Origin: Gammaproteobacteria bacterium
GTDB lineage: Bacteria > Pseudomonadota > Gammaproteobacteria > JAABTG01
Assembly: GCA_017999615.1 (NCBI GenBank)
Contig: JAGNLM010000007.1
Location: forward strand, 1 to 64,000
Length of the DNA: 64,000 nt
Reading direction: 5' to 3'
How positions within the stretch are numbered: position 1 is the stretch's first letter; each line of letters opens with the position of its first letter. The position numbers and the translations under genes are program-made. Positions 3,573 to 31,226 of the stretch are shown one piece after another. The notes below the pieces were generated by a model, which was given only the letters and a program-made list of their open reading frames with translations, was not told where the DNA came from and made no database searches.

Positions 3573-3947
3573 TTACTCCTTGGCGGTGAGTTTCTTGACG
3601 GCAGCGACCACCGGACTGTTTTCCGGGTGCTGGCTGGTTCCTGCCTCGGCGGTGATACGCGAGGCAATTTCGGGTTGGTCGGCACGGGCGTCGAGCAAGG
3701 CGCGGCGCACCTGCGCTTCCGAGAAGCCTGCTGCGAGGAATTCCGCCGTGCGTTGGGACTGGCCCGCGATCAGGCACATCTCTGCAATGGCCTGAGCTTG
3801 GCCGCGCCCGCTGGCGAAGGACTGCGACAGTGCGGCTTGGGCGGCAGGCGTCGGTTGCGGATCGCTGTCGGTTTGCGGCTGGTCGCCCTGTGGGTCGGTG
3901 TCGGCCGGATGCTTAAGGTTTTCGTGGTCGTCTTTGGGGTCGGTCAT
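3573..3947 (-). CDS. Nested in-frame scaffold protein start (Nu3-like)
   Basis: Inside the protease gene an in-frame ATG at 3947 is preceded by CTGGAGAACACC, giving a Shine-Dalgarno-like GGAGA at good spacing. The predicted 124-residue product (MTDPKDDHENLKHPADTD) is acidic and helical, equivalent to lambda Nu3, the scaffold made from an internal start of gene C. The arrangement is seen directly; expression of a separate product is inferred from the lambda paradigm. Confidence 0.6.
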   Translation of the reverse strand: MTDPKDDHENLKHPADTDPQGDQPQTDSDPQPTPAAQAALSQSFASGRGQAQAIAEMCLIAGQSQRTAEFLAAGFSEAQVRRALLDARADQPEIASRITAEAGTSQHPENSPVVAAVKKLTAKE

Positions 3948-4880
3948 GGTGTTCTCCAGGGTGAGAGGTTTGCTTCGGGGCGGGTTTGAAATGGCTTGCG
4001 CGGACAGGCTTCGCGGCGAGGCGCGGGCCACGCCGGGCTGCGCCAGCCGCTGCTTGGCCGCCAGCGCGTCGGTGAACTCGGTCATCACCGCATCAAACGG
4101 CATCACTGCGTCGGCGAGGCCTGCTGCCACCGCCTGCTCGCCGTAGAACAGCCCCGCCTCGGTGGCGCGCACGGCATCCGGATCGAGGCCGCGCATCTGT
4201 CCGACCTGATTCACGAAGATGTCGTAGAGACGATCCACCTCGGTCTGCAACGCGGTAGTGGCCTGGGGAGTGAGTGGCTCGTGCGGGGAGAAATCGTTCT
4301 TGTGGCTGCCCGCGAAGACAGCGGTGTAGTTCAGGCCGTCTTTGGCGTCCTTCACCGACTGGTCGACGTGCAGCGCGATCACGCCAATCGAGCCGACGCC
4401 AGCGGTCTGCGACAGCGTCAGGCGCTGGCAGGCAGCCGCGATGGCAAAAGCTGCCGAGTACGCGGCATCGTTGGCGTGCGCCCAGATCGGCTTGATGGCG
4501 CTGGCTGCGCGGATGCGCTCGGCCAACTCGAACACACCCGATGCCTCGCCGCCGGGCGAATCCAGATCGAGCAGGATGCCCGCCACCTGTGGGTCGGCCA
4601 GCGCGGCGTCCAGTCGGGCTTCGATCTCGCCGTAGGACATCAGGCCAGAGGCGGCTTCGATACCCATCGAACGTCTGACCAGCGTGCCGACCACCGGGAT
4701 GACGGCAATGCCCGCCTGCCCCGATGTGGTGCTCTGGCGCGGCATGGGCAGCGGCATCGCCATGTCCAGATCGGGCAAGCCGATGCGGGAACCCAGCACG
4801 GAGAGGATCACGTCGAGTTTGGGACGCGCAATGAGGAGCGGCGTCCCGTAGAGGCGGGACGCCAGATGAACGAGTTGCAT
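3573..4880 (-). CDS. Phage head maturation protease, S49 family (gpC-like)
   Basis: A 435-residue SppA/ClpP-type serine peptidase that processes the prohead. The S49 domain covers residues about 55-290: ILLDLDSPGGEASGVFELA carries the SPGG loop, ANDAAYSAAFAIAAAC carries the nucleophile Ser region, and GVGSIGVIALHVDQS follows. The C-terminal about 125 residues are acidic, Gln/Pro-rich and helical, like a scaffold domain, and have their own in-frame start at 3947. The ATG at 4880 is chosen because the portal stop lies at 4882; the longer reading overlaps the portal gene. Confidence 0.9.
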   Translation of the reverse strand: MQLVHLASRLYGTPLLIARPKLDVILSVLGSRIGLPDLDMAMPLPMPRQSTTSGQAGIAVIPVVGTLVRRSMGIEAASGLMSYGEIEARLDAALADPQVAGILLDLDSPGGEASGVFELAERIRAASAIKPIWAHANDAAYSAAFAIAAACQRLTLSQTAGVGSIGVIALHVDQSVKDAKDGLNYTAVFAGSHKNDFSPHEPLTPQATTALQTEVDRLYDIFVNQVGQMRGLDPDAVRATEAGLFYGEQAVAAGLADAVMPFDAVMTEFTDALAAKQRLAQPGVARASPRSLSAQAISNPPRSKPLTLENTMTDPKDDHENLKHPADTDPQGDQPQTDSDPQPTPAAQAALSQSFASGRGQAQAIAEMCLIAGQSQRTAEFLAAGFSEAQVRRALLDARADQPEIASRITAEAGTSQHPENSPVVAAVKKLTAKE

Positions 4881-4881
4881 G

Positions 4882-6414
4882 TCAGTTGTCCTGTTGGTCT
4901 TGCGGCACGGCCACCGTGGCGGCCGCATTTATGGGAGCGCCCGATGTCGATGGTTGGGGCGCTTTGTCGTGACGCGGGTCAGAGTCGAAGACCAGTCCGA
5001 GCGCATCGGCACGCTGGTTGTCGGCGGCGATCTCGCGGTCGATGTCCTCGGCGTCGTAGCCGAAGGCCGAGATGGCTTCCGATCGAGACAGCAGCCCGGC
5101 GCGAATAGCAGTCAGCATCGCGTCGAATTCCTTCTTGGGATCGACCCACTGCCAACCCTGTGGAATCCATTTGGCCGCGAAATAGTCGCGCTTCTTCTCG
5201 GTGAACTGCGGCAACGCCAGCGCGCCTTCAAGTAGCGCCTGCTCCATCCAGGCACGCCAGATCGGGCGGCACAGCTGGTGGACGATCACGCCGTGCTGGA
5301 TGGCCTCACAGCGGCGGCGAAACTCCAGCAGCCCAGCCCGGATCGACGAGTAGTTCACTTGCGTCAGGTCGCCGGTCAGCATCTCGTAGGTGATGCCCAT
5401 CGCCGCTGCCACCGCCCGGAACTGCATGCGCAGGAATTCGGCGTAGCTCGCGCCAACGTCGGCGGGCTGACTGAACTTCACGTCCTCGCCGGGCTCCAGG
5501 ATCTGCATCGTGCCCGGCTCCAGCCCGGCCAACGCTGCACCACTGGCATCCGGCAGTCCTTCACCCATCAGGTTGTCCTCGGGTGACAGGCGCGTGATGA
5601 AGCCCGCGAACATCGCGGCGGTTTTCTTGCGCACGAGCTCGGCGTCGTCGTACTGGTCGAGTTCGTTAAGCTTGACCAGTGCGCGCGCCAGCCATGGTTC
5701 GCCCCGGATCTGTCCAGGCCGCAAGGGACGAAACAGGTGGATAATTTCGCTGGCCGGCACACGCACTGTGTCGAGACCGCCCACCACGCCACCGGTGCTT
5801 GACATCGGGGCCAGTGAGCCATCACCCGGATGCGAGCGATACAGGTGGTAAGCCACCCGCCGTCCGAGCTTGTCGAACTCGATACCCGCACGGATGACGT
5901 TTCCGGAAGCCAACTCCTGATTCAGAGTGGCTGGCAGGTGTTCGGGTTCGAGCAACTGCAATTGCAGGCCCACCGGCAGGCCATCCTCCGGGCGGCGATA
6001 GCGCAGCCGCACCAGACATTCCCCGCCTTCGAGCATGGCGCGACAGGCCAAGGCCTGCAGTCCGTAGAAATCAGTCAGTCCGGCGGCATCGGCTTCCTCG
6101 CACCAGTCCCACCACAGGCTGTGGATCGCTTCGCGCAGGGGCTGATCGGCCAGCATGCTCTGCGGCTTGATGCCGGTGCCGATGGCGTTCGAGACAAAGG
6201 CTTCAACGCCTGCCGCTGCCCAGGCATTGCGGCGCACCAGATCGCGGCTCTTGGCGCGCAATTCGTTCTGGGTGAACGCCAGTGCTGCGACTGCGCCTGG
6301 ATTGCCGACCTGCCACGCCAAGGCGCGACGGCCGCCACCGATACCGTCATAGAACGGGGCTCCGCCAAGCAGACTCATGCCGACGCGTCTACGCATTCGG
6401 TCAAACCATTGCAT
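4882..6414 (-). CDS. Phage portal protein, lambda family
   Basis: A 510-residue lambda gpB-type portal, the dodecameric ring through which DNA is packaged and to which the tail attaches. Seen: RDLVRRNAWAAAGVEAFVSN near the N-terminus, the conserved VRVPASEIIHLFRPLRPGQ block, FGITYEMLTGD-like MGITYEMLTGDLTQVNYSS, and a C-terminal WVDPKKEFDAMLTAIRAG region. Length is near lambda gpB (533). The ATG at 6414 lies two bases after the stop of the W-like gene; a longer reading would overlap that gene. Confidence 0.93.
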   Translation of the reverse strand: MQWFDRMRRRVGMSLLGGAPFYDGIGGGRRALAWQVGNPGAVAALAFTQNELRAKSRDLVRRNAWAAAGVEAFVSNAIGTGIKPQSMLADQPLREAIHSLWWDWCEEADAAGLTDFYGLQALACRAMLEGGECLVRLRYRRPEDGLPVGLQLQLLEPEHLPATLNQELASGNVIRAGIEFDKLGRRVAYHLYRSHPGDGSLAPMSSTGGVVGGLDTVRVPASEIIHLFRPLRPGQIRGEPWLARALVKLNELDQYDDAELVRKKTAAMFAGFITRLSPEDNLMGEGLPDASGAALAGLEPGTMQILEPGEDVKFSQPADVGASYAEFLRMQFRAVAAAMGITYEMLTGDLTQVNYSSIRAGLLEFRRRCEAIQHGVIVHQLCRPIWRAWMEQALLEGALALPQFTEKKRDYFAAKWIPQGWQWVDPKKEFDAMLTAIRAGLLSRSEAISAFGYDAEDIDREIAADNQRADALGLVFDSDPRHDKAPQPSTSGAPINAAATVAVPQDQQDN

Positions 6415-6416
6415 GT

Positions 6417-6638
6417 TCAGAACCCTTTGCCGGTGGTGACCCGGATCTGGCGTGGCGCGCCAGGCCACAGTCCGGTGTCTACGGCCTGCTCGAAGAGGTC
6501 GCGCTTGACCGCCGCAATGGCGGCCTGGAGTTCATCGACGCTGCGATACTCGACGGTCTTGTCGCCAAAGGTCACGCGCTTTTCGCCCTTGACCAGCGCC
6601 GCTTCCAGTGCGTCGAGGTGTGCTTGTGTGTAGGCCAT
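6417..6638 (-). CDS. Head-tail joining protein (gpW-like)
   Basis: A 73-residue protein (MAYTQAHLDALEAALVKGEK) with a helix, a beta hairpin (KRVTFGDKTVEYRSVDEL) and a second helix. This is the fold order of lambda gpW (68 residues), which plugs the portal before FII binds. It lies immediately upstream of the portal gene as in lambda. The start at 6638 overlaps the preceding gene by one base. Confidence 0.82.
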   Translation of the reverse strand: MAYTQAHLDALEAALVKGEKRVTFGDKTVEYRSVDELQAAIAAVKRDLFEQAVDTGLWPGAPRQIRVTTGKGF

Positions 6639-7030
6639 CAGCGGTACACCGTGAGGTTGATTTCGGAGGAGTCGTCGAAGGATGCGGACGTGGTGGCGCA
6701 ACTGATGTCGACGTACTGAGCGGTCTTCTGGTCGGTGCTGGATCGCACGATGGCAATGCGCTGCGTGCCACTGTTGGTGCTGCTGCGGGCAAGCGCGGTC
6801 CAGCAATAGTTGGCGTCGGGCATGGCAACGGCGAAGGTCACGCGGTAGCGACCCGCCGCCGTCCGGGTCACGCTGGCCACGTTGTGCGATGCACGCACGA
6901 CGACCTGCGTGCCGACATAGCCGAAACACACCCATGCCCGGGCCACGCCGGGGTGGGTGGCGTCGATCTTTGTCCTGACCTCGAGTCCGACACGACTGGC
7001 CAGCGCACTGATGCGCGATGCGAGGCTCAT
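6638..7030 (-). CDS. Small fibre-like phage protein between terminase and gpW
   Basis: A 130-residue protein beginning MSLASRISALASRVG. The rest resembles the beta-sandwich tip found at the C-terminus of many tail fibres (VTRTAAGRYRVTFAVAMPDA, then NYCWTALA). The N-terminal motif is shared with the upstream neighbour (MSLATRIESLVIRV). Its ATG overlaps the neighbour's stop (ATGA). A fibre-like protein between the large terminase and gpW is not part of the lambda plan. Function unknown; possibly a capsid-attached adhesin or head fibre. Confidence 0.55.
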   Translation of the reverse strand: MSLASRISALASRVGLEVRTKIDATHPGVARAWVCFGYVGTQVVVRASHNVASVTRTAAGRYRVTFAVAMPDANYCWTALARSSTNSGTQRIAIVRSSTDQKTAQYVDISCATTSASFDDSSEINLTVYR

Positions 7031-7521
7031 CAGACCAGCGCACCCACAAAGACCGCGACGAAGTCTGTGTCGGTATTGCCGACATCGGTGGCTGCGACGG
7101 CACCGATGTTGCTGCGCGCCTGAAGTTGCTCGGCCACGGTCAGCGACTGCGCCGCATCGAAGCGCACGCGGTTGTTCACGGCGGCGAGCAGCGCATCCAG
7201 ACCGCTGGTGCCGTTCTGCAGCAGTTGCTGGATTTCCACCAGCGTGTCGTACGCGGCATCGGCACCGCCCAAGATCTCGGTCTTGAGCGCATCGAGCAGT
7301 GAGACGATCTTGTTGGACGAGTACGTGGTCGTGGCCGCGACGTGCGCATCGTCGATCACCGCCGACGACACCACGGCGGCTTTCAGTTCGTTGATGGCCG
7401 CGACCAGATTCGACTTGTCGGTGGTGGTGAGGTTGGCCAGGTTGCCTGCCTTGGCGCGGACGTCGTTGAACTCCTGCGCGACGCGGATGACCAGGCTTTC
7501 GATACGGGTAGCAAGACTCAT
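7030..7521 (-). CDS. Small coiled phage protein paired with fibre-like protein
   Basis: A 163-residue protein starting MSLATRIESLVIRVAQEFND. Alpha-helical heptad-like stretches (LVAAINELKAAVVSS, IVSLLDALKTEIL) are followed by a segment (FDAAQSLTVAEQLQARSNIG) often seen just before the tip domain in tail fibres. Together with the next gene it looks like a fibre split in two: shaft here, tip there, both with the same N-terminal anchor motif. Function unknown. Confidence 0.55.
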   Translation of the reverse strand: MSLATRIESLVIRVAQEFNDVRAKAGNLANLTTTDKSNLVAAINELKAAVVSSAVIDDAHVAATTTYSSNKIVSLLDALKTEILGGADAAYDTLVEIQQLLQNGTSGLDALLAAVNNRVRFDAAQSLTVAEQLQARSNIGAVAATDVGNTDTDFVAVFVGALV

Positions 7522-23510: not shown

Positions 23511-23975
23511 TCAGGCGTCGGAGAAACCGAGCAATCGACGCTGCGCAGCCCAATCGCGCGGTAGTTGCTCTTGGCGGCCACGCAAGGTGTGCAGATTCAG
23601 GTGGCGTGGCTGACGTCCTTCGAATATCGCCTCCACGATATCGGGGGCCAACATGGTCATGCGCAAGACCTCGGCAGCCCAGCCCGGTTCCACTTTGAAG
23701 GCATGCGCCAAGTCCGTTGTCGTGGAGTAGGTGCCATCGTCGATCAAGCGCTTCCAGTAGAAGGCCTTGCCCAGCGTTTTGATCATCGGCACATCGAAGC
23801 CACCGATTCGGTCCGCGATCTCGGGGGCTGGCGGTATCAGCAGCTTCCGGTTCTGGCGGCGCTTGATCGTCAGGGGCACCAAGGTGACCCGCTGCCCCTC
23901 GCTGACATAACTGCGCGCCTCGGCTCCAATCTCGATGCGGACGGCGCGCTGGCGCTGGTGGGTCGTGGCATTCAT
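23511..23975 (-). CDS. Unknown protein of serine-recombinase cassette, 154 aa
   Basis: A basic protein (MNATTHQRQRAVRIEIGAEA). The middle contains a helix-turn-helix-like segment (ALAHAFKVEPGWAAEVLRM region) and the C-terminus PRDWAAQRRLLGF. It starts inside the 3' end of the serine recombinase gene (4-bp overlap), so the two are expressed together. I have seen genes of this type adjoining DUF2924/recombinase pairs, with no assigned function. A recombination accessory or DNA-binding factor is the simplest guess. Confidence 0.68.
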   Translation of the reverse strand: MNATTHQRQRAVRIEIGAEARSYVSEGQRVTLVPLTIKRRQNRKLLIPPAPEIADRIGGFDVPMIKTLGKAFYWKRLIDDGTYSTTTDLAHAFKVEPGWAAEVLRMTMLAPDIVEAIFEGRQPRHLNLHTLRGRQEQLPRDWAAQRRLLGFSDA

Positions 23976-25384
23976 GCCAAAGCCTCCTCGACACGCTCTT
24001 GGGACTCTTCGATCAAGGGATGCGTGCTGATGTCCGCACCGAATCCGATCCAACCGTCCTCCCGCCAAACGATATCCAGGCCGTGCCCGTGTAGTTGCAC
24101 GCGTTCGATCAACAGCCGTGTGATCCGTTGCTGCTCGGCAGGGAACAGTTGCGACCACACGTCACCGATGCGCTGCATGGCGACCACCACCTGTGCCTCG
24201 TCCAGCGTCGACCCCGCCGGATGCTGCTGGCAGGATCTCCACACTGCGATCAGCATTTGCGGCGATGAGAGCGCAGCATGGATTTGCGCCAACACGGCAT
24301 CTTCGATCTCGGCGGCAGGCAGGTGGCCCACGTCCGGCGTATGCGGAGCCAGGCTGGCACCTGCGTTGCGCCGCTTGTGCAGGTAAGGCACGTAGTAGCG
24401 GTACTGCCGACCATTTTTCTTCTTGACGAAGGAGTGCAACATGCGTTGGCCATCCGGTGCGAACAGAAGTCCCGCCAGCAGTGCCGGATGCTTGGCTCGG
24501 TGTTCGCGCGGTGCCTGCTTTCGCCTCTCAATGAAGGCGTGTGCCGCGTCCCACAATTCTTGAGAAATGATGGGGTCGTGCTGGGCCGAGTACCACGTCT
24601 CGTGATTGCAGATTTCACCGAGGTAAATGCGGTTACGCAGCAAGGTAAAGAGGTACTGCTGATCGATGCTGCGCCCCAATCGCTCCCGGCCGGACTGGGT
24701 GACCCATGCCTTAGTGGTATACCCTTCCATATCCAGTTCGCGGACGAGTCGCGCAGCCGAGCCGTGCTCGGCATAGCGGCGGAAGATGTCACGCACCAGC
24801 GCGGCTTCACGTTCATTGATGACGAGCTTGCGTTCGACCACGTCGTATCCAAGAGGCGGGACTCCGCCCATCCACATGCCCTTGGCCTTGCTGGCGGCGA
24901 TCTTGTCGCGGATGCGTTCGCCGGTGACCTCGCGTTCGAACTGCGCGAATGACAAAAGGATGTTGAGCGTCAATCGCCCCATCGATGTGGTGGTGTTGAA
25001 CTGCTGCGTGACCGCGACAAAGGAGACGCCGTTGCGGTCGAAAACCTCGACCAGCTTTGCGAAGTCCGGCAGGCTGCGCGTGAGGCGGTCGATTTTGTAG
25101 ACGACCACGGTATCGATCTTCCCCGCCTCGATGTCGATCATCAGGCGGCGCAACCCGGGCCGTTCCATGTTGCCGCCCGAGTAGCCGCCGTCGTCGTATC
25201 CGTCGTCGACGGCAATCCAGCCTTCATGTCGTTGGCTTGCAATGAAGGCCAAGCCCGCATCACGCTGTGCCTCGAGGCTGTTGTATTCCTGGTCGAGGCC
25301 TTCGTCAGTGGACTTGCGTGTGTAGACGGCGCATCGCTTCTTTGGCGTGACTGCGGGAATCTGGTTTCGACGCACTGAGCTCAT
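23972..25384 (-). CDS. Large serine recombinase (integrase)
   Basis: A 470-residue recombinase. N-terminal resolvase domain: AVYTRKSTDEGLDQEYNSLE contains the catalytic Ser (in RKS), with VVVYKIDRLTRS (Arg residues) and a FAQFEREVTGERIRDKIAAS helix. The recombinase domain follows (PLGYDVVERKLVINEREAAL; LRNRIYLGEI), then a C-terminal helical part. This is the likely integration/excision enzyme. The ATG at 25384 overlaps the DUF2924 stop by 4 bp; upstream residues in frame belong to the other gene. Confidence 0.9.
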   Translation of the reverse strand: MSSVRRNQIPAVTPKKRCAVYTRKSTDEGLDQEYNSLEAQRDAGLAFIASQRHEGWIAVDDGYDDGGYSGGNMERPGLRRLMIDIEAGKIDTVVVYKIDRLTRSLPDFAKLVEVFDRNGVSFVAVTQQFNTTTSMGRLTLNILLSFAQFEREVTGERIRDKIAASKAKGMWMGGVPPLGYDVVERKLVINEREAALVRDIFRRYAEHGSAARLVRELDMEGYTTKAWVTQSGRERLGRSIDQQYLFTLLRNRIYLGEICNHETWYSAQHDPIISQELWDAAHAFIERRKQAPREHRAKHPALLAGLLFAPDGQRMLHSFVKKKNGRQYRYYVPYLHKRRNAGASLAPHTPDVGHLPAAEIEDAVLAQIHAALSSPQMLIAVWRSCQQHPAGSTLDEAQVVVAMQRIGDVWSQLFPAEQQRITRLLIERVQLHGHGLDIVWREDGWIGFGADISTHPLIEESQERVEEALA

Positions 25385-25854
25385 GCTGCCCCCTTCTTCG
25401 AAGCAAGTGCCTTCAAACCAAAGAACACCGGGCCTGACCAATGGCTGCCTGTGATGCGTTTGGCTACAGCGGACAGGCTCTTGAAGCGTTGCCCCTGGTA
25501 CTCGAAATCATTCGATCCGCGCACCAGCACACGATGTTCAATGTCGTCGTAGATGCGTGTCAGGACGGTACCGGGCAGTAGGCGTTGGCTATCGCCGCGC
25601 AGTTGCTTGGGCAAGATGCCGGTTTCGCCAACCTCCTCAAGCTTCTTGCGCAGTGACGGTTTCAAACCGCCAAACGCGCGCTCTTGCATCCGGTAGGCCA
25701 GGCGACTTTCCAACCAGACCCGATGGTGGTGATTCGGCCGTTCATCGAAATGGTCGTCCCAGAGAGCCCAAAGATCATCCATCGAAAGATGGGGAATAGC
25801 CGCGACGCGGGCGGCGACTGAGGCGGGCGTTGGTGAGGTTGCGTGTGCTGTCAT
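25381..25854 (-). CDS. DUF2924 protein of recombinase cassette
   Basis: A 157-residue basic protein. LWALWDDHFDERPNHHHRVW and the C-terminal YQGQRFKSLSAVAKRITGSH are hallmarks of DUF2924, which typically precedes large serine recombinases in proteobacterial elements. Role unproven, probably helping the recombinase. The ATG at 25854 overlaps the preceding gene by 4 bp; the stop overlaps the recombinase start. Confidence 0.85.
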   Translation of the reverse strand: MTAHATSPTPASVAARVAAIPHLSMDDLWALWDDHFDERPNHHHRVWLESRLAYRMQERAFGGLKPSLRKKLEEVGETGILPKQLRGDSQRLLPGTVLTRIYDDIEHRVLVRGSNDFEYQGQRFKSLSAVAKRITGSHWSGPVFFGLKALASKKGAA

Positions 25855-26078
25855 GGGCGAACTCCGTTGTTGTGATCGGGGTTCGCATTCACGCGCTGTT
25901 GGCCGGGGAAGCCAAGGCAAACCGGCTCTCTATGGCCAGATTTATTTGAATCGTCCGACGCTGAATTTCTGGTGCGCAGTCGCAACAATGCTGCAGAGAG
26001 CAAGTCAGCGATTTCTTCGTGCGCGTGTCGGGGGCTTGGGGTGCCCCGGTCGATGGAGATGAGTTCGATGTCGTGCAT
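25851..26078 (-). CDS. Small protein heading recombinase cassette, 75 aa
   Basis: A 75-residue protein (MHDIELISIDRGTPSPRHAH) with a short helix (EEIADLLSAALLRLRTR) and a polar tail. It is coupled to DUF2924 by a 4-bp overlap, and AAGGAA lies upstream of its ATG. GCGAAC/GTTCGC half-sites at 25857 and 25881 lie inside its 3' end. No family function known. The 161-bp gap between it and the beta-lactamase gene holds nothing I can assign. Confidence 0.62.
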   Translation of the reverse strand: MHDIELISIDRGTPSPRHAHEEIADLLSAALLRLRTRNSASDDSNKSGHREPVCLGFPGQQRVNANPDHNNGVRP

Positions 26079-26239: not shown

Positions 26240-27175
26240 TCAACGGAGAATCGCATCTTTGAACACTGCTCCTATTCTTGCAATTGCCTGATTGCTGGCC
26301 TGCAAGGATGCTTGGGTTTGCGTGATATAAATTCCAACCACCACCGGCTTCTTCGATGGCGGCCAGATTACCGCGACGATCGAGCGCGAGCCGTAGCCAC
26401 CCGCACCGGTCTTGTCGGCGATCTTCCAGTCGGATGGAAGAGAGGAGCGCAGGAGCGCTCCGGCGACCTGATCGTCCAGCATCCATTGTGTAAGCTCGGA
26501 TCGGGATGAGGCTGACAATACGTCGCCAAGAAGTATCTTTCTCAGACTACTGACTATGGCATTGGGAGTGGTGGTGTCACGCAGATCGCCTGGTGAACCT
26601 TCGTTTAACTCGGGTTCTTTGCGATCAAGCCGGGTTTCTTCATCGCCGATAGACCGCATGTACGCGTTGAATCCAGTTGATCCTCCAATGGCATCAAAGA
26701 CAACATTAGCCGCCGTGTTATCGCTATAACTCACCGCCGCCTGACAAACTTTGCCTAATTTGATGGTTTCAGGTGCCAGCGACTTTTCCGTTATCGGCGA
26801 ATATGTGACCAGCATTTCCCTGTTGATCGATACCGACTGATTCAGCGAGAGCGATTTCCCATCGACTTTAGCGAGCAATGCTGCGCAGGAAAATGTCTTG
26901 TGCGTACTATTCAGAGGGAAGCGCTCGTCGCCCCGATAGTTCCAAGTCGTGCTGGTGTTTGCGTCAAACACAGTCATGCCTACCCTGGCTTGCAGAGTAT
27001 TCTCTTCAGCCCGTACAACATCAATCAGCCTCCCGGTCTCCAGAGCGCAAACTGGGGTAGAGAAAAACGATACAACGACGCATGTAAGCGCGATTTTTGT
27101 ACCCACGATAGCTTTGATTCTCAATTTAGCTTTCTCCTCATTACATTTTAAGGGCTCGCTGATGCCGCTACTCAA
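26240..27175 (-). CDS. Class A beta-lactamase, carbenicillinase-like
   Basis: A 311-residue serine beta-lactamase. All class A elements are present: STHK with the nucleophile Ser (SxxK), SDN in AVSYSDNTAANVVF, the omega-loop Glu in RKEPELNEG (ExxLN), and KTG in IADKTGAGGYGSRS. LRDTTTPNAIVSSL and the omega loop strongly resemble CARB/PSE enzymes, but those carry RSG or RTG where this has KTG. A signal-like segment (IALTCVVVSFFSTPVCA) directs export. The gene looks AT-richer than its neighbours, suggesting separate acquisition. Confidence 0.92.
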   Translation of the reverse strand: MSSGISEPLKCNEEKAKLRIKAIVGTKIALTCVVVSFFSTPVCALETGRLIDVVRAEENTLQARVGMTVFDANTSTTWNYRGDERFPLNSTHKTFSCAALLAKVDGKSLSLNQSVSINREMLVTYSPITEKSLAPETIKLGKVCQAAVSYSDNTAANVVFDAIGGSTGFNAYMRSIGDEETRLDRKEPELNEGSPGDLRDTTTPNAIVSSLRKILLGDVLSASSRSELTQWMLDDQVAGALLRSSLPSDWKIADKTGAGGYGSRSIVAVIWPPSKKPVVVGIYITQTQASLQASNQAIARIGAVFKDAILR

Positions 27176-27184
27176 GCGTTCGGT

Positions 27185-28114
27185 TTAGCGTACCGGCAAT
27201 TGCCCATTTGAGACGAACTGATCAAAGCTGTCAAAGCTCTCGCCGTCTTGCCAAGACCGATCCCATGACCGTGGTTCAGCGCTTTCCAGTAGGAGCAGCG
27301 TGAGGATTCGATCACGTGCGCCGTAACTGTGCTTGAACTCCCACAGTTTCATGTGTGCTGCCTCTTCCGGGCACCAGATCGCGGCTGACATTTCCGTGCC
27401 ATCCCATTCTTGCTCGACACTGGTATCAGCTGCCAGCGTGCCCGGCAATGGCTCCTGTGGATCACCATTGCGCCGGATGCGCGCCCGCGTCCTGACGGCA
27501 CTGCTGCTGCGCCATTCGTACTTCACGAAGCCATTGTCCCAATAGACGAGGATCGCACGCTGCTTGGTGAACTTGATAAAGCGGATACACAACGCCTCGA
27601 ACGAGACCTGGAAACGCTTGGCGATCGCACTGAGGACATGTAGATCAATACGCTGATTCGATATCCACTCGCGCAGCAGATCGCCAGGCATCAGCAGGTT
27701 GCTGGCGAACTCGTCCGCTTCACGCTCAATTTGGCGAAGGCCATCGATACCGGTGTGAACGCTCTGGCTGTCGCAGTTGAAACTCTGCTTCTGACTGCGA
27801 TGCAAGATAAAGTGGCCCAGCTCATGGGCAATAGTGAAGCGTTGACGCTCACCTCGAGCCTTGCCGTTGTAGGCAATACCCCAAACTGCGTGGTCATCAG
27901 GATCGCGGGCCAGCATTCCTTCGAACGCGTCGCCAATGATTTCGACCGGCGGCTTGATCTCCCGAACACCCGCCCCATAAGGTGTGGACGGCAACATCTG
28001 GCGGACAATTTCCAAATCGATGGCGTCGGGCATGCCCTCGCTGTACCACGCCCGCAACCACTTGATGACGTGGCTGGAGGCAATGGAACCCGTCAGTGCC
28101 TGCGCGTCGCTCAA
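27185..28114 (-). CDS. ImmA/IrrE-family metallopeptidase
   Basis: A 309-residue protein with the zinc protease motif FTIAHELGHFILH and, downstream, a conserved EREADEFASNLLMP block carrying the third ligand. These are diagnostic of ImmA/IrrE/COG2856 proteases, which cleave partner XRE repressors after stress. The C-terminal half (RAILVYWDNGFVKYEWRSSS) may be a sensor. It lies 3 bp after the XRE gene, the usual pair arrangement. Its end adjoins the beta-lactamase start by 9 bp, so the lactamase may be read from the same promoter. Confidence 0.92.
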   Translation of the reverse strand: MSDAQALTGSIASSHVIKWLRAWYSEGMPDAIDLEIVRQMLPSTPYGAGVREIKPPVEIIGDAFEGMLARDPDDHAVWGIAYNGKARGERQRFTIAHELGHFILHRSQKQSFNCDSQSVHTGIDGLRQIEREADEFASNLLMPGDLLREWISNQRIDLHVLSAIAKRFQVSFEALCIRFIKFTKQRAILVYWDNGFVKYEWRSSSAVRTRARIRRNGDPQEPLPGTLAADTSVEQEWDGTEMSAAIWCPEEAAHMKLWEFKHSYGARDRILTLLLLESAEPRSWDRSWQDGESFDSFDQFVSNGQLPVR

Positions 28115-28117
28115 TCC

Positions 28118-28453
28118 TCAGTCTCCGCTCTTGCGCGAAAACATCATCTTGAGAACGTCTTGGTAGTTCTTCTTCTCTTCTTCTGTCATCCCAGCGTACT
28201 CGCGGAAGAAGGCCACATCTTCTGGACTGGCCTGAGGAACCTGTTCAATGGGCTCGCCCATGATGTCCTCCATCGTCACGCCCAGTACCCTGGCCAAGGC
28301 CTGGACCCGTTCAGCGGAGGGACGCTGGCCGTCCTTCATCTCCAGTTCCCATATATACGCCTTGGTACAGCCGACTTCGTCGGCGACCTGTTGCAAGGTC
28401 AATTTCTTCGCCTCGCGTAAGCGTCGCAGGCGTGCTCCGAACGCTGAAGCCAT
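28118..28453 (-). CDS. XRE-family repressor
   Basis: A 111-residue regulator. The N-terminal helix-turn-helix reads LRRLREAKKLTLQQVADEVG and CTKAYIWELEMKDGQRPS; the C-terminal part (YAGMTEEEKKNYQDVLKMMF) is a helical tail suited to dimerisation or to cleavage by the downstream ImmA-like protease. It is transcribed divergently from the 28698 gene across an operator-bearing region and probably represses both directions. Confidence 0.9.
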   Translation of the reverse strand: MASAFGARLRRLREAKKLTLQQVADEVGCTKAYIWELEMKDGQRPSAERVQALARVLGVTMEDIMGEPIEQVPQASPEDVAFFREYAGMTEEEKKNYQDVLKMMFSRKSGD

Positions 28454-28503
28454 AGCGATGCTCCTGTAGGGGAAAACAGTCAGTTAACAAAAACAAGACC
28501 GCC

Positions 28504-28533
28504 AGTATAGCCGCGAGATACAAATGAGGTCTA
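28504..28533 (-). promoter_or_regulatory. Leftward promoter of XRE/ImmA operon with operator
   Basis: On the minus strand TAGACC (28528-28533), an 18-bp spacer and TATACT (28504-28509) form a plausible sigma70 promoter. The operator half GCGAGATACAA (28513-28523) occupies the spacer, so bound repressor would block it: autoregulation. Confidence 0.6.
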
Positions 28534-28548
28534 GATGTGCCGATTTGA

Positions 28549-28593
28549 TTGACAAGCGGAAATCTGAGGTTCAGAATCGCGCTTGTATCTCGC
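28549..28593 (+). promoter_or_regulatory. Rightward promoter of unknown gene pair with operator
   Basis: TTGACA (28549-28554), 17 bp, CAGAAT (28572-28577) is a good sigma70 promoter. TTGTATCTCGC (28583-28593), the exact inverted copy of the other operator half, lies at the expected start point. A degenerate copy, CTTGTGCGAGG, follows at about 28601. Confidence 0.68.
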
Positions 28594-28697
28594 TACTTTA
28601 CTTGTGCGAGGTGCGTGTTCAGTAACCCAGTCGCTGGCCAGTGCAGTCCGTACATCGGTCGCAGACCTTCGACGCCGATCCAGAAAGGACGATCAAG

Positions 28698-29933
28698 ATG
28701 AAGAAGACCTTTGTCGACGTGATGCTCGAGCTGCCGGTGGATGCCACGCTGCGCGACTTCCTGACCACCCACAGCCTGCCGGTGCCCCATGGCTTTGCCT
28801 GGGATGACACACCTGAGACCAGCCAGTTTCTGGTCGAAGCGGTTAAGGTCTGGCCCGACATTGCTGCCCGCGACCGGATGACAGCCAACCTCATGGCCAG
28901 CGTTCAGTTGGGCGATGCGGCAGGCAAGCAGGCGATGTTTGAGGCGGCCGTGGCCGATGGTGCTGCGCTGGCGGGCTTGGCGCTGTGTGCAAGTGACGTC
29001 CACCGTTCCTTCTGGCTATACGTCCACCACCCGGCGCTGTTCGAGCGCGCCTATGACTTCAGCTTTTGGGAACAGCATGGGCAGCAGACGCAGCAATACG
29101 ACCTTGGCTTGAAACGCCAACCGAACGGTTCGGATGCCAATCTGACAGCGTTGCGTCATGCCATCTCGGCTTTCTACAAGCGCGAACTGCAATGCGGAGA
29201 CGGCAGCGTGGCGCACTTGGTCGAGCGCAGTCCGGGGGTGTTCCTGTTGTCGGTCCATGTCAAGGACATGGCGATGCTGCGCCTGGAGTTCGAGGGAGCG
29301 AGCCTGAAGCGCCGGGTCGGCAACCCCAACATTCACATGGTGCTGGAGTACGCCAAGTCCACCGGTGTCGTGCGCACGCTGGTGCGCGGCGGGGCAAAGT
29401 ATCAGCAAATGCTGGTCGAGGCCTTCGCGGAGCATGTGCTGGGCGTGAAAGCAAGCGCTCACAAGATCAAGTCGCCGACTCTGGATCTGTCGATGCTGCG
29501 CACCGGGTTCGATGTGCCGGAGGTCTTTGAGGACGGTTTTTCGATGGTGCAGCTCAAGGCACTCACCCTGCTCAGCCCCGACACAGCGCTGAAGATCGAA
29601 TGCACGGCGATGCAGTCCAGCCAGCAACGCTCGGTGCACGATTTGCTGAAGGAGAAACTCCCAGGCCCGCTGGAGGGTCAGTGGGCGGTGACAGCGGCAC
29701 AGGTCAATCTCTATTACCCGCCCGAGCCGGGCAGGACTCGCCCCAAGGTGGTCACCATCGAAGTGACCAGCAAAGGGCGGCTGAACCTGCACAAGTTCGA
29801 CGCCAACATGCAGGCGCAACTGGAGGGTTACCTTGTCGCGGTGGGCATCTTGCAGAAGGGCCAGACCCTCAGTGCCCAGGAATTGCCGCCAGAGACCGAC
29901 GCAGTCAGTTCATCATCGGCCTACGAGGACTGA
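28698..29933 (+). CDS. Unknown protein of XRE/ImmA-controlled module, 411 aa
   Basis: A 411-residue soluble protein starting MKKTFVDVMLELPVDATLRD, with AAAGGA upstream. It is helical in the first half (WPDIAARDRMTANLMASVQL) and mixed alpha/beta in the second (GVFLLSVHVKDMAMLRLEFE; VVTIEVTSKGRLNLHKFDAN). No transmembrane segment, P-loop, nuclease or protease motif is visible, and I do not recognise the family. It has its own repressed promoter and ends 3 bp before the second gene. Defence, immunity or moron functions fit the context, but the sequence does not say which. Confidence 0.78.
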   Translation: MKKTFVDVMLELPVDATLRDFLTTHSLPVPHGFAWDDTPETSQFLVEAVKVWPDIAARDRMTANLMASVQLGDAAGKQAMFEAAVADGAALAGLALCASDVHRSFWLYVHHPALFERAYDFSFWEQHGQQTQQYDLGLKRQPNGSDANLTALRHAISAFYKRELQCGDGSVAHLVERSPGVFLLSVHVKDMAMLRLEFEGASLKRRVGNPNIHMVLEYAKSTGVVRTLVRGGAKYQQMLVEAFAEHVLGVKASAHKIKSPTLDLSMLRTGFDVPEVFEDGFSMVQLKALTLLSPDTALKIECTAMQSSQQRSVHDLLKEKLPGPLEGQWAVTAAQVNLYYPPEPGRTRPKVVTIEVTSKGRLNLHKFDANMQAQLEGYLVAVGILQKGQTLSAQELPPETDAVSSSSAYED

Positions 29934-29936
29934 TCA

Positions 29937-30887
29937 ATGGCGACGCACGATGCCTGGGCCTTGGTTTGCCGTCTGTTCGCGGGTGGCACGCCGGTACTGC
30001 GTGCCACGCTGTCGCCACGCGAGGTATCTGCTTTGTCTGTGCTCGGCAAAACGGTCAGGCCAGCAGTGCTGGATCAGTCTTTTGTGCTCTGCCCCCACTG
30101 CCAGCAGCATCGGGCGCAGGTCTGGAGTGACGGCCGGGGCGGTCGGATCTGCCGTTGCCCGGAGTGTGGCCAGGTGCCGGTCGAGGCAATCGATGGTGCG
30201 GCATTGGCCCTGGATGAAGACTGGCTGCGGCAGAAAATGCGCCTCGCGCTCGACATCGAGAGTCGCGACGACGTAGATGATTTGGGCGACGGTGCTTGGC
30301 GGCTCGGTAACGCCCGCCGATCTCCGGTCGTGCTGGCCCGAGATCTGACGAGAGTGCTGCATGAGCCGACCTTGCTGGATCGTGTCCGAGTTGCGGGTAG
30401 CAACATCCGAGTCATCACTCCCAGGCCGCGCACGACTCGTGGATCGCCATTCGGCTCAGGAGTGGAATGGCTGGCGCTGGAAGAACGATTCACGTTCTAT
30501 GGCGGCGGGATCTCGTTCATCCCTTCGGCACCGTCTGCAGCGCCAGCAGTGGCCGATCCGGCCGCACCTGTGAACGGGCCATTCTCAGCGGACTTCAAGT
30601 GGGCGACGCTGCCGGACGTGCAGGCCACGCCGATCCGGTTCACCGATGGTCAGGCTAAGGTCTTCGAGTCGCTGTGGTCGTTCAAGGGAGTCGAGGTGGA
30701 CGGAGAAAGGATCATGCAGCGCGCTGGCCAGAAGAGCGACAAGCCGATTGACCTGTTCAAGATCAAGTCGAAGGACAAGGGCAAGCCGGAGCACGAGGCT
30801 CGACTGGCGGCCTACGGAGCACTCGTCGTCACGCAGCAACGCGCAGGCTTGTATTCCATGCCTTGCGCGGCGGCAGTGTTGGCGTGA
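29937..30887 (+). CDS. Unknown zinc-ribbon protein of XRE/ImmA-controlled module, 316 aa
   Basis: A 316-residue protein with an N-terminal four-Cys zinc ribbon (LCPHCQQHRAQ and ICRCPECGQ, residues about 50-80), a Pro/Ala-rich linker near the middle, and a C-terminal part (FTDGQAKVFESLWSFKGVEV) with a charged KIKSKDKGKPEHEARLAAYG stretch that suggests nucleic-acid contact. It follows the 411-residue gene by 3 bp, so they are one operon. Family not recognised. It is the last gene before the tRNA border. Confidence 0.78.
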   Translation: MATHDAWALVCRLFAGGTPVLRATLSPREVSALSVLGKTVRPAVLDQSFVLCPHCQQHRAQVWSDGRGGRICRCPECGQVPVEAIDGAALALDEDWLRQKMRLALDIESRDDVDDLGDGAWRLGNARRSPVVLARDLTRVLHEPTLLDRVRVAGSNIRVITPRPRTTRGSPFGSGVEWLALEERFTFYGGGISFIPSAPSAAPAVADPAAPVNGPFSADFKWATLPDVQATPIRFTDGQAKVFESLWSFKGVEVDGERIMQRAGQKSDKPIDLFKIKSKDKGKPEHEARLAAYGALVVTQQRAGLYSMPCAAAVLA

Positions 30888-31150: not shown

Positions 31151-31226
31151 TGGTGGCCAGGGACGGAGTCGAACCGCCGACACGGGGATTTTCAGTCCCC
31201 TGCTCTACCAACTGAGCTACCTGGCC
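31151..31226 (-). tRNA. tRNA-Phe (GAA)
   Basis: The 76-nt minus-strand sequence folds as a standard cloverleaf: acceptor stem GGCCAGG/CCTGGCC, D arm GCTC...GAGC, anticodon stem GGGGA/TCCCC with loop CTGAAAA giving anticodon GAA, T arm with GTTCGAC, and an encoded CCA end. The 3' end faces the mobile element, the orientation typical of tRNA-associated integration borders. Short open frames across it are artefacts. Confidence 0.97.

Follow-up and report, generated by a model that had tools for sequence, protein, structure and literature searches.

The pairing of a CapH repressor with a CapP protease is a DNA-damage-responsive controller of CBASS, BREX, Pycsar, and DISARM operons, and CapP is activated by single-stranded DNA (PMC13373217). 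The RexA protein of phage lambda has an RdgC/IML3/CHL4 fold, binds DNA non-specifically, and takes part both in the exclusion of phages and in tilting the lambda switch towards lysis (PMC11077077). Here, a two-gene cassette is described from a 64,000-nucleotide stretch of the genome of a Gammaproteobacteria bacterium (contig JAGNLM010000007.1, positions 1 to 64,000; hereafter the window). The two genes, termed A and B, stand divergent from a CapH-CapP pair in a prophage. Given that A-B recurs in many phages, in mobile islands, and on one plasmid, and that the damage-type switches beside it differ, it is probably a damage-triggered phage-defense or phage-switch device. The module consists of four open reading frames, all of which were found where an earlier, sequence-only reading of this DNA had placed them.

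27185..28114, minus strand: CapP, an ImmA/IrrE (M78) metalloprotease with an HELGH motif and a TTG start as called (PADLOC capP, 1.7e-54; Peptidase_M78, 8.1e-22)
28118..28453, minus strand: CapH, an XRE-family repressor (PADLOC capH, 6.5e-26; HTH_31, 9.9e-16)
28698..29933, plus strand: gene A, 411 amino acids, a putative DNA-binding protein with a predicted RdgC/CENP-N/CENP-L-like fold
29937..30887, plus strand: gene B, 316 amino acids, with a zinc ribbon (C52xxC55 ... C74xxC77) and a C-terminal OmpR/PhoB-type winged helix (residues ~205-314)

The XRE-family capH and M78 protease capP genes are adjacent, and the pair lies beside and divergent from A-B with operator-like sites in the intervening spacer, as is characteristic of a CapH-CapP regulator. 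The profile matches support the protease-gated repressor of ImmR/ImmA type that had been proposed from the sequence and narrow it to CapH-CapP. As in the immune operons under such control, the CapH and CapP homologs are divergent from the operon and paired operator-like arms lie between; unlike those operons, the controlled genes here are A and B, and the module contains no CD-NTase, PglZ, or DISARM gene. The combination of a CD-NTase cyclase with a Cap effector that identifies CBASS is likewise absent, with neither A nor B assigned to a PADLOC family. The ImmR-ImmA module of ICEBs1-type elements is also similar in having an XRE repressor and an ImmA-type protease by the integrase, divergent from the genes controlled. 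It differs from the present locus, where the profiles return CapH and CapP, a serine recombinase serves as the integrase, and no xis-like gene is divergent.

For both A and B, scans of Pfam, NCBIfam, and PADLOC returned no annotated family, in agreement with the sequence-only reading, and only weak zinc-ribbon matches were obtained for B. In PHROGs, A belongs to phrog_37634 (1.4e-31), a family of unknown function. Profile searches of A and B against solved structures gave nothing meaningful; a resemblance of the B profile to designed armadillo proteins was dismissed as spurious, as it covered ~30 columns with no passing stretch. A homolog of the window's A was absent from the public phage and plasmid records searched, and for a relative a single plasmid record was found. 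The zinc ribbon reported earlier is real in the window's B, but two CxxC motifs occur in only 20 of 41 B homologs, so the ribbon is not a defining feature of the family.

The capH-A spacer is 244 bp long and contains the following promoter-like and operator-like sites.

28504..28523: left operator-like arm, AGTATAGCCGCGAGATACAA, overlapping the capH promoter with its -10 TATACT on the minus strand
28549..28577, plus strand: rightward promoter-like site of the A-B operon, TTGACA-17-CAGAAT, with TTGACA kept across relatives
28583..28602: right operator-like arm, TTGTATCTCGCTACTTTACT, directly 3' of the -10 of the A promoter

The inverted repeat noticed from the sequence alone, exact over 11 bp (GCGAGATACAA at 28513-28523 and TTGTATCTCGC at 28583-28593), was confirmed, as was the rightward promoter, with TTGACA at 28549, CAGAAT at 28572, and 17 bp between them. 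The arms proved longer than first claimed: aligned without gaps, they reach 20 nucleotides each at 85% complementarity and are conserved in 23 relatives. When the 244-bp spacer was shuffled 1000 times with its dinucleotides preserved, an inverted arm of at least 11 bp arose in 4 of the shuffles, which makes a chance origin unlikely. The 8-mer core, GAGATACA, occurs twice in the window, both times in this spacer; given that approximately two copies are expected by chance, the weight rests on its position and conservation. When the spacers of 23 related prophage contigs were aligned, the left AGTATAGC...AGATAC and the right TGTATCT... were invariant or nearly so, and the conserved islands were both arms and TTGACA, most other positions being variable. 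The invariance of the left arm may be partly due to the promoter, since its AGTATA reads TATACT on the minus strand, a good -10 box for capH. The placement of one arm at each promoter is the pattern expected of a repressor that would act on both.

Homologs were sought in 369 genomes of the class, in 398 genomes of the phylum, and among IMG/VR contigs; open reading frames were listed by a mechanical gene caller, and several neighbors were assigned by eye from the sequence. A homologs were found in 15 of the class genomes, in 33 of the phylum genomes, and on 24 IMG/VR contigs. B lies directly 3' of A on all 24 of these phage contigs and at 25 of 35 genomic loci. The remaining 10 loci comprise three with a broken A, three near a contig end, two with an A-B fusion, one in which B was recovered by an iterated profile, and one with an adjoining transposase. 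In the two fusions (L062 and L063; loci are cited by such numbers) A and B form a single open reading frame of ~720 amino acids, which is strong evidence that they act together.

A divergent CapH-CapP pair accompanies A on 23 of the 24 phage contigs and at 14 of the 35 genomic loci. A set of 27 genomes, picked for the presence of A, contains 17 strong CapP matches (E < 1e-50), of which 15 lie near an A gene. Linkage of the pair to XRE/ImmA genes had been set beforehand as a test, and it is strong. With the four genes so linked and neither protein matching a named family, neither of the observations that were to refute the sequence-only reading was made.

More distant arrangements were also seen. 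In six alphaproteobacterial elements (L116, L117, L119, L124, L131, and L132) genes that distantly resemble A and B come after a LexA-type repressor gene, and in L117 and L119 a DUF3800-like gene separates the two. At L113 and L125, an XRE gene and an ImmA-type protease gene are followed, in the equivalent position, by two unknown genes of ~390-413 and 369-390 amino acids, one of which has a zinc-ribbon-like motif; these pairs are possibly very remote counterparts of A-B.

The controller beside A-B is not always CapH-CapP. A WYL regulator takes its place at L091 and L103, a LexA-type repressor at L102, a lone ImmA-type protease at L100 and L105, and an XRE-ImmA fusion at L025 and L027; the remaining loci have restriction-modification neighbors or no recognized controller. 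On the A tree, which was built quickly and has some long branches, the controller class, assigned partly by eye, changes at least 10-12 times. Therefore, A-B is what stays constant in the module, whereas the controller can be exchanged. In Candidatus Tenderia electrophaga, a mobilizable plasmid (L023; CP013100.1) carries A-B as the first two of five genes in an operon that goes on with multi-ubiquitin, JAB, and ThiF-E1 genes. Multi-ubiquitin operons elsewhere have CapP-like genes beside them in some cases (L139, L142, and L146), with a CapH-like gene as well at L139 and L146.

Type I, IIG, and III restriction-modification genes adjoin A-B at some loci. Their repeated presence, together with the DNA-binding fold predicted for A, would suit a role in which A-B modulates restriction or other adjoining defense systems, for example by shielding the element's own DNA, and is not itself the defense effector. 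The restriction-linked members are confined to a single clade of the A tree, and no restriction-modification gene lies next to the pair in the window or its close relatives, and such a role is considered quite unlikely.

Structural models suggest a DNA-associated fold for A. The AlphaFold model of A (mean predicted local distance difference test (pLDDT) score 85) matched CENP-N best (Z 10.5), then RdgC (Z 7.9; root mean square deviation 5.9 over 217 residues; 15% identity) and CENP-L (Z 7.1). Foldseek returned CENP-N (E 8.7e-05) and RdgC (E 1.3e-03), and a phage RdgC was matched in a viral structure library (E 8.6e-03). The match to CENP-N includes part of its N-terminal helical domain, from model residue 60 onward. 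Given that the deviations are large (4-6 angstrom) and most Z scores middling, these matches indicate a resemblance of fold and not a homology demonstrated by sequence. B was modeled (mean pLDDT 88) as a soluble protein that includes a winged helix; the C-terminal OmpR/PhoB-type match, with Z up to 6.9 over 87 residues, was consistent across the matches listed.

Comparison with the proteins of this fold group shows the limits of each likeness. RdgC matches A structurally over the 217 residues given above, but A has an extra N-terminal helical region and no sequence-profile similarity to RdgC, and is prophage-borne, operonic, and switch-controlled. CENP-N and CENP-L (Chl4/Iml3) include the best structural match of A, yet they are eukaryotic kinetochore proteins, and no sequence similarity between them and A was found. 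Lambda RexAB is likewise a two-gene cassette in a prophage immunity region, and the RdgC-like fold predicted for A is one published for RexA. An identification of A as RexA was rejected, there being no sequence relation between them (hhalign probability 0.2), and RexA itself is not among the matches listed for the A model. The cassettes differ further in that B is a winged-helix protein modeled as soluble, whereas RexB-type proteins are membrane proteins, and in that A-B is divergent from the repressor gene and not co-transcribed with it. The exclusion and switch-biasing roles of RexA present the same ambiguity as is met with A-B.

In the window, the module forms the right end of a tailed-phage prophage that carries terminase, portal, and major head genes in addition to a serine recombinase and DUF2924. 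The neighboring features are as follows.

23972..25441, minus strand: large serine recombinase, the phage integrase (Resolvase, 4.5e-38; Recombinase, 6.3e-13)
25381..25857, minus strand: DUF2924 protein adjoining the integrase (PF11149, 4.1e-44)
26240..27175, minus strand: beta-lactamase of class A, CARB/PSE-like, carried as cargo with capP on one side and DUF2924 on the other (Beta-lactamase2, 2.4e-44)
31151..31226, minus strand: tRNA-Phe, ~260 bp beyond B, which likely marks the right end of the prophage

A tRNA-Phe or tRNA-Ala occurs at a similar place in several relatives. The beta-lactamase carries the STHK, SDN, and KTG motifs and scored 351 bits in NCBIfam, below the family cut-off of 430; it is found in the window only, related phage contigs having other sequence at that place.

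A second serine-recombinase/DUF2924 element of the same genome (L111; C8:1-14000) holds a 712-amino acid QatC homolog (1.8e-60) in the slot occupied here by A-B; that slot (3823-7053) also contains a LexA-like helix-turn-helix gene and a gene for a 262-residue protein. In L109 (10119-18000), a DUF2924/serine-recombinase element has BrxA, PglZ, BrxHI, and PglX genes of a BREX system directly beside a truncated CapP. Thus, the slot accepts defense genes.

The position of A-B also bears on a possible function in excision. The xis gene of ICEBs1-type elements is the one divergent from their repressor gene, and A-B lies close to the integrase at most loci, as would a directionality factor (excisionase) of the serine recombinase. 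However, A-B is found with tyrosine integrases as well (L024, L088, and L095) and on a plasmid, so it is not confined to serine-integrase elements, and some serine-recombinase loci have no detectable A-B; that A or B is such a factor is judged very unlikely. The sequence-only reading had offered defense, immunity, or excision control as the kind of cargo encoded here. Excision control thus becomes unlikely, whereas defense gains from the exchange of defense-type regulators and from the neighboring genes, a gain that falls short of establishing a defense effector.

The most serious rival takes CapH-CapP to be the prophage's own lysogeny switch, of the ImmR-ImmA or CI type, with A-B as the first early genes, whose DNA-binding products would tip the switch to lysis or ready the DNA for replication or recombination. 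The layout is of lysogeny type: A-B diverges from a block of integrase, DUF2924, protease, and repressor genes. In other phages (L020, L026, L091, L102, and others) the pair looks like the head of an early operon, the next genes on that strand being an excisionase-like helix-turn-helix gene, a RecA-like ATPase gene, and a gene resembling that for single-stranded DNA-binding protein; primase genes lie 3' of A-B in satellite-like islands (L028, L029, L088, L093, and L095). Given these arrangements, a role in lysis/lysogeny or replication stays in contention. The distant pairs that follow LexA-type repressors in several alphaproteobacterial elements occupy an equivalent position, and the published bias of lambda towards lysis by RexA, a protein of related fold, points the same way (PMC11077077). 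By contrast, A-B in the window and in 23-24 related prophages ends at the attachment site with no lytic genes after it, the plasmid operon joins it to multi-ubiquitin, JAB, and E1 genes, and several DUF2924-serine-recombinase loci have no detectable A-B. On balance, this rival is possible and carries real weight but is doubtful.

In the explanation preferred here, a serine-recombinase prophage bears, at its attachment-site end, an effector module that is gated by damage. CapH would act as a repressor at two divergent promoters, its own and that of A-B, by way of the two inverted operator arms, candidate sites chosen by their conservation. Single-stranded DNA produced by damage or infection would activate CapP, leading to cleavage of CapH, by analogy with the characterized CapH-CapP family, and hence to expression of A-B. 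Judging from the models, A may then clamp or coat DNA, and B, with its winged helix and, here, zinc ribbon, may help to recruit A or add specificity. The likeliest outcome would be that a competing phage is excluded in a Rex-like manner or shut down, which would protect the lysogen or the prophage itself. The regulatory part of this explanation is regarded as very probable; the full statement, defense included, is evenly poised.

Several observations weigh against that full statement, besides the early-gene-like arrangements and primase genes described above. No database annotation connects A or B with defense, neither protein matched a defense-system family in PADLOC, and the pair is a candidate by its context. 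The lambda rex genes are active in the lysogen, where A-B should be repressed. No other CI-like repressor was found among the prophage proteins in a scan that was not exhaustive. The window's A has a net charge of -7, from which DNA binding is not obvious, and it has neither a Pfam match to PF04381 nor a profile relation to the genome's own RdgC (hhalign probability 0.1). A fixed link with multi-ubiquitin operons was also rejected, the plasmid being the one case and none of 12 other multi-ubiquitin loci carrying A-B.

A more specific proposal is offered tentatively, as somewhat speculative: that A and B together form a new anti-phage system, the main component of which is a bacterial protein related to the RdgC/RexA/CENP-L/CENP-N fold and equipped with a CENP-N-type N-terminal helical domain, the system being released by interchangeable damage-type switches (CapH-CapP, WYL, LexA, and ImmA) in phages, satellite-like islands, and plasmids. 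Immune operons are known to be switched by CapH-CapP, so A-B, a widespread pair that shares its neighborhoods with CapH-CapP, WYL, LexA, and ImmA controllers, is a strong candidate for an unrecognized system of defense or phage conflict. With its predicted fold, A would bring a prophage-borne protein into the group formed by RdgC, lambda RexA, and CENP-L/CENP-N, and this would bear both on the mechanism of RexA-like proteins and on the origin of kinetochore proteins.
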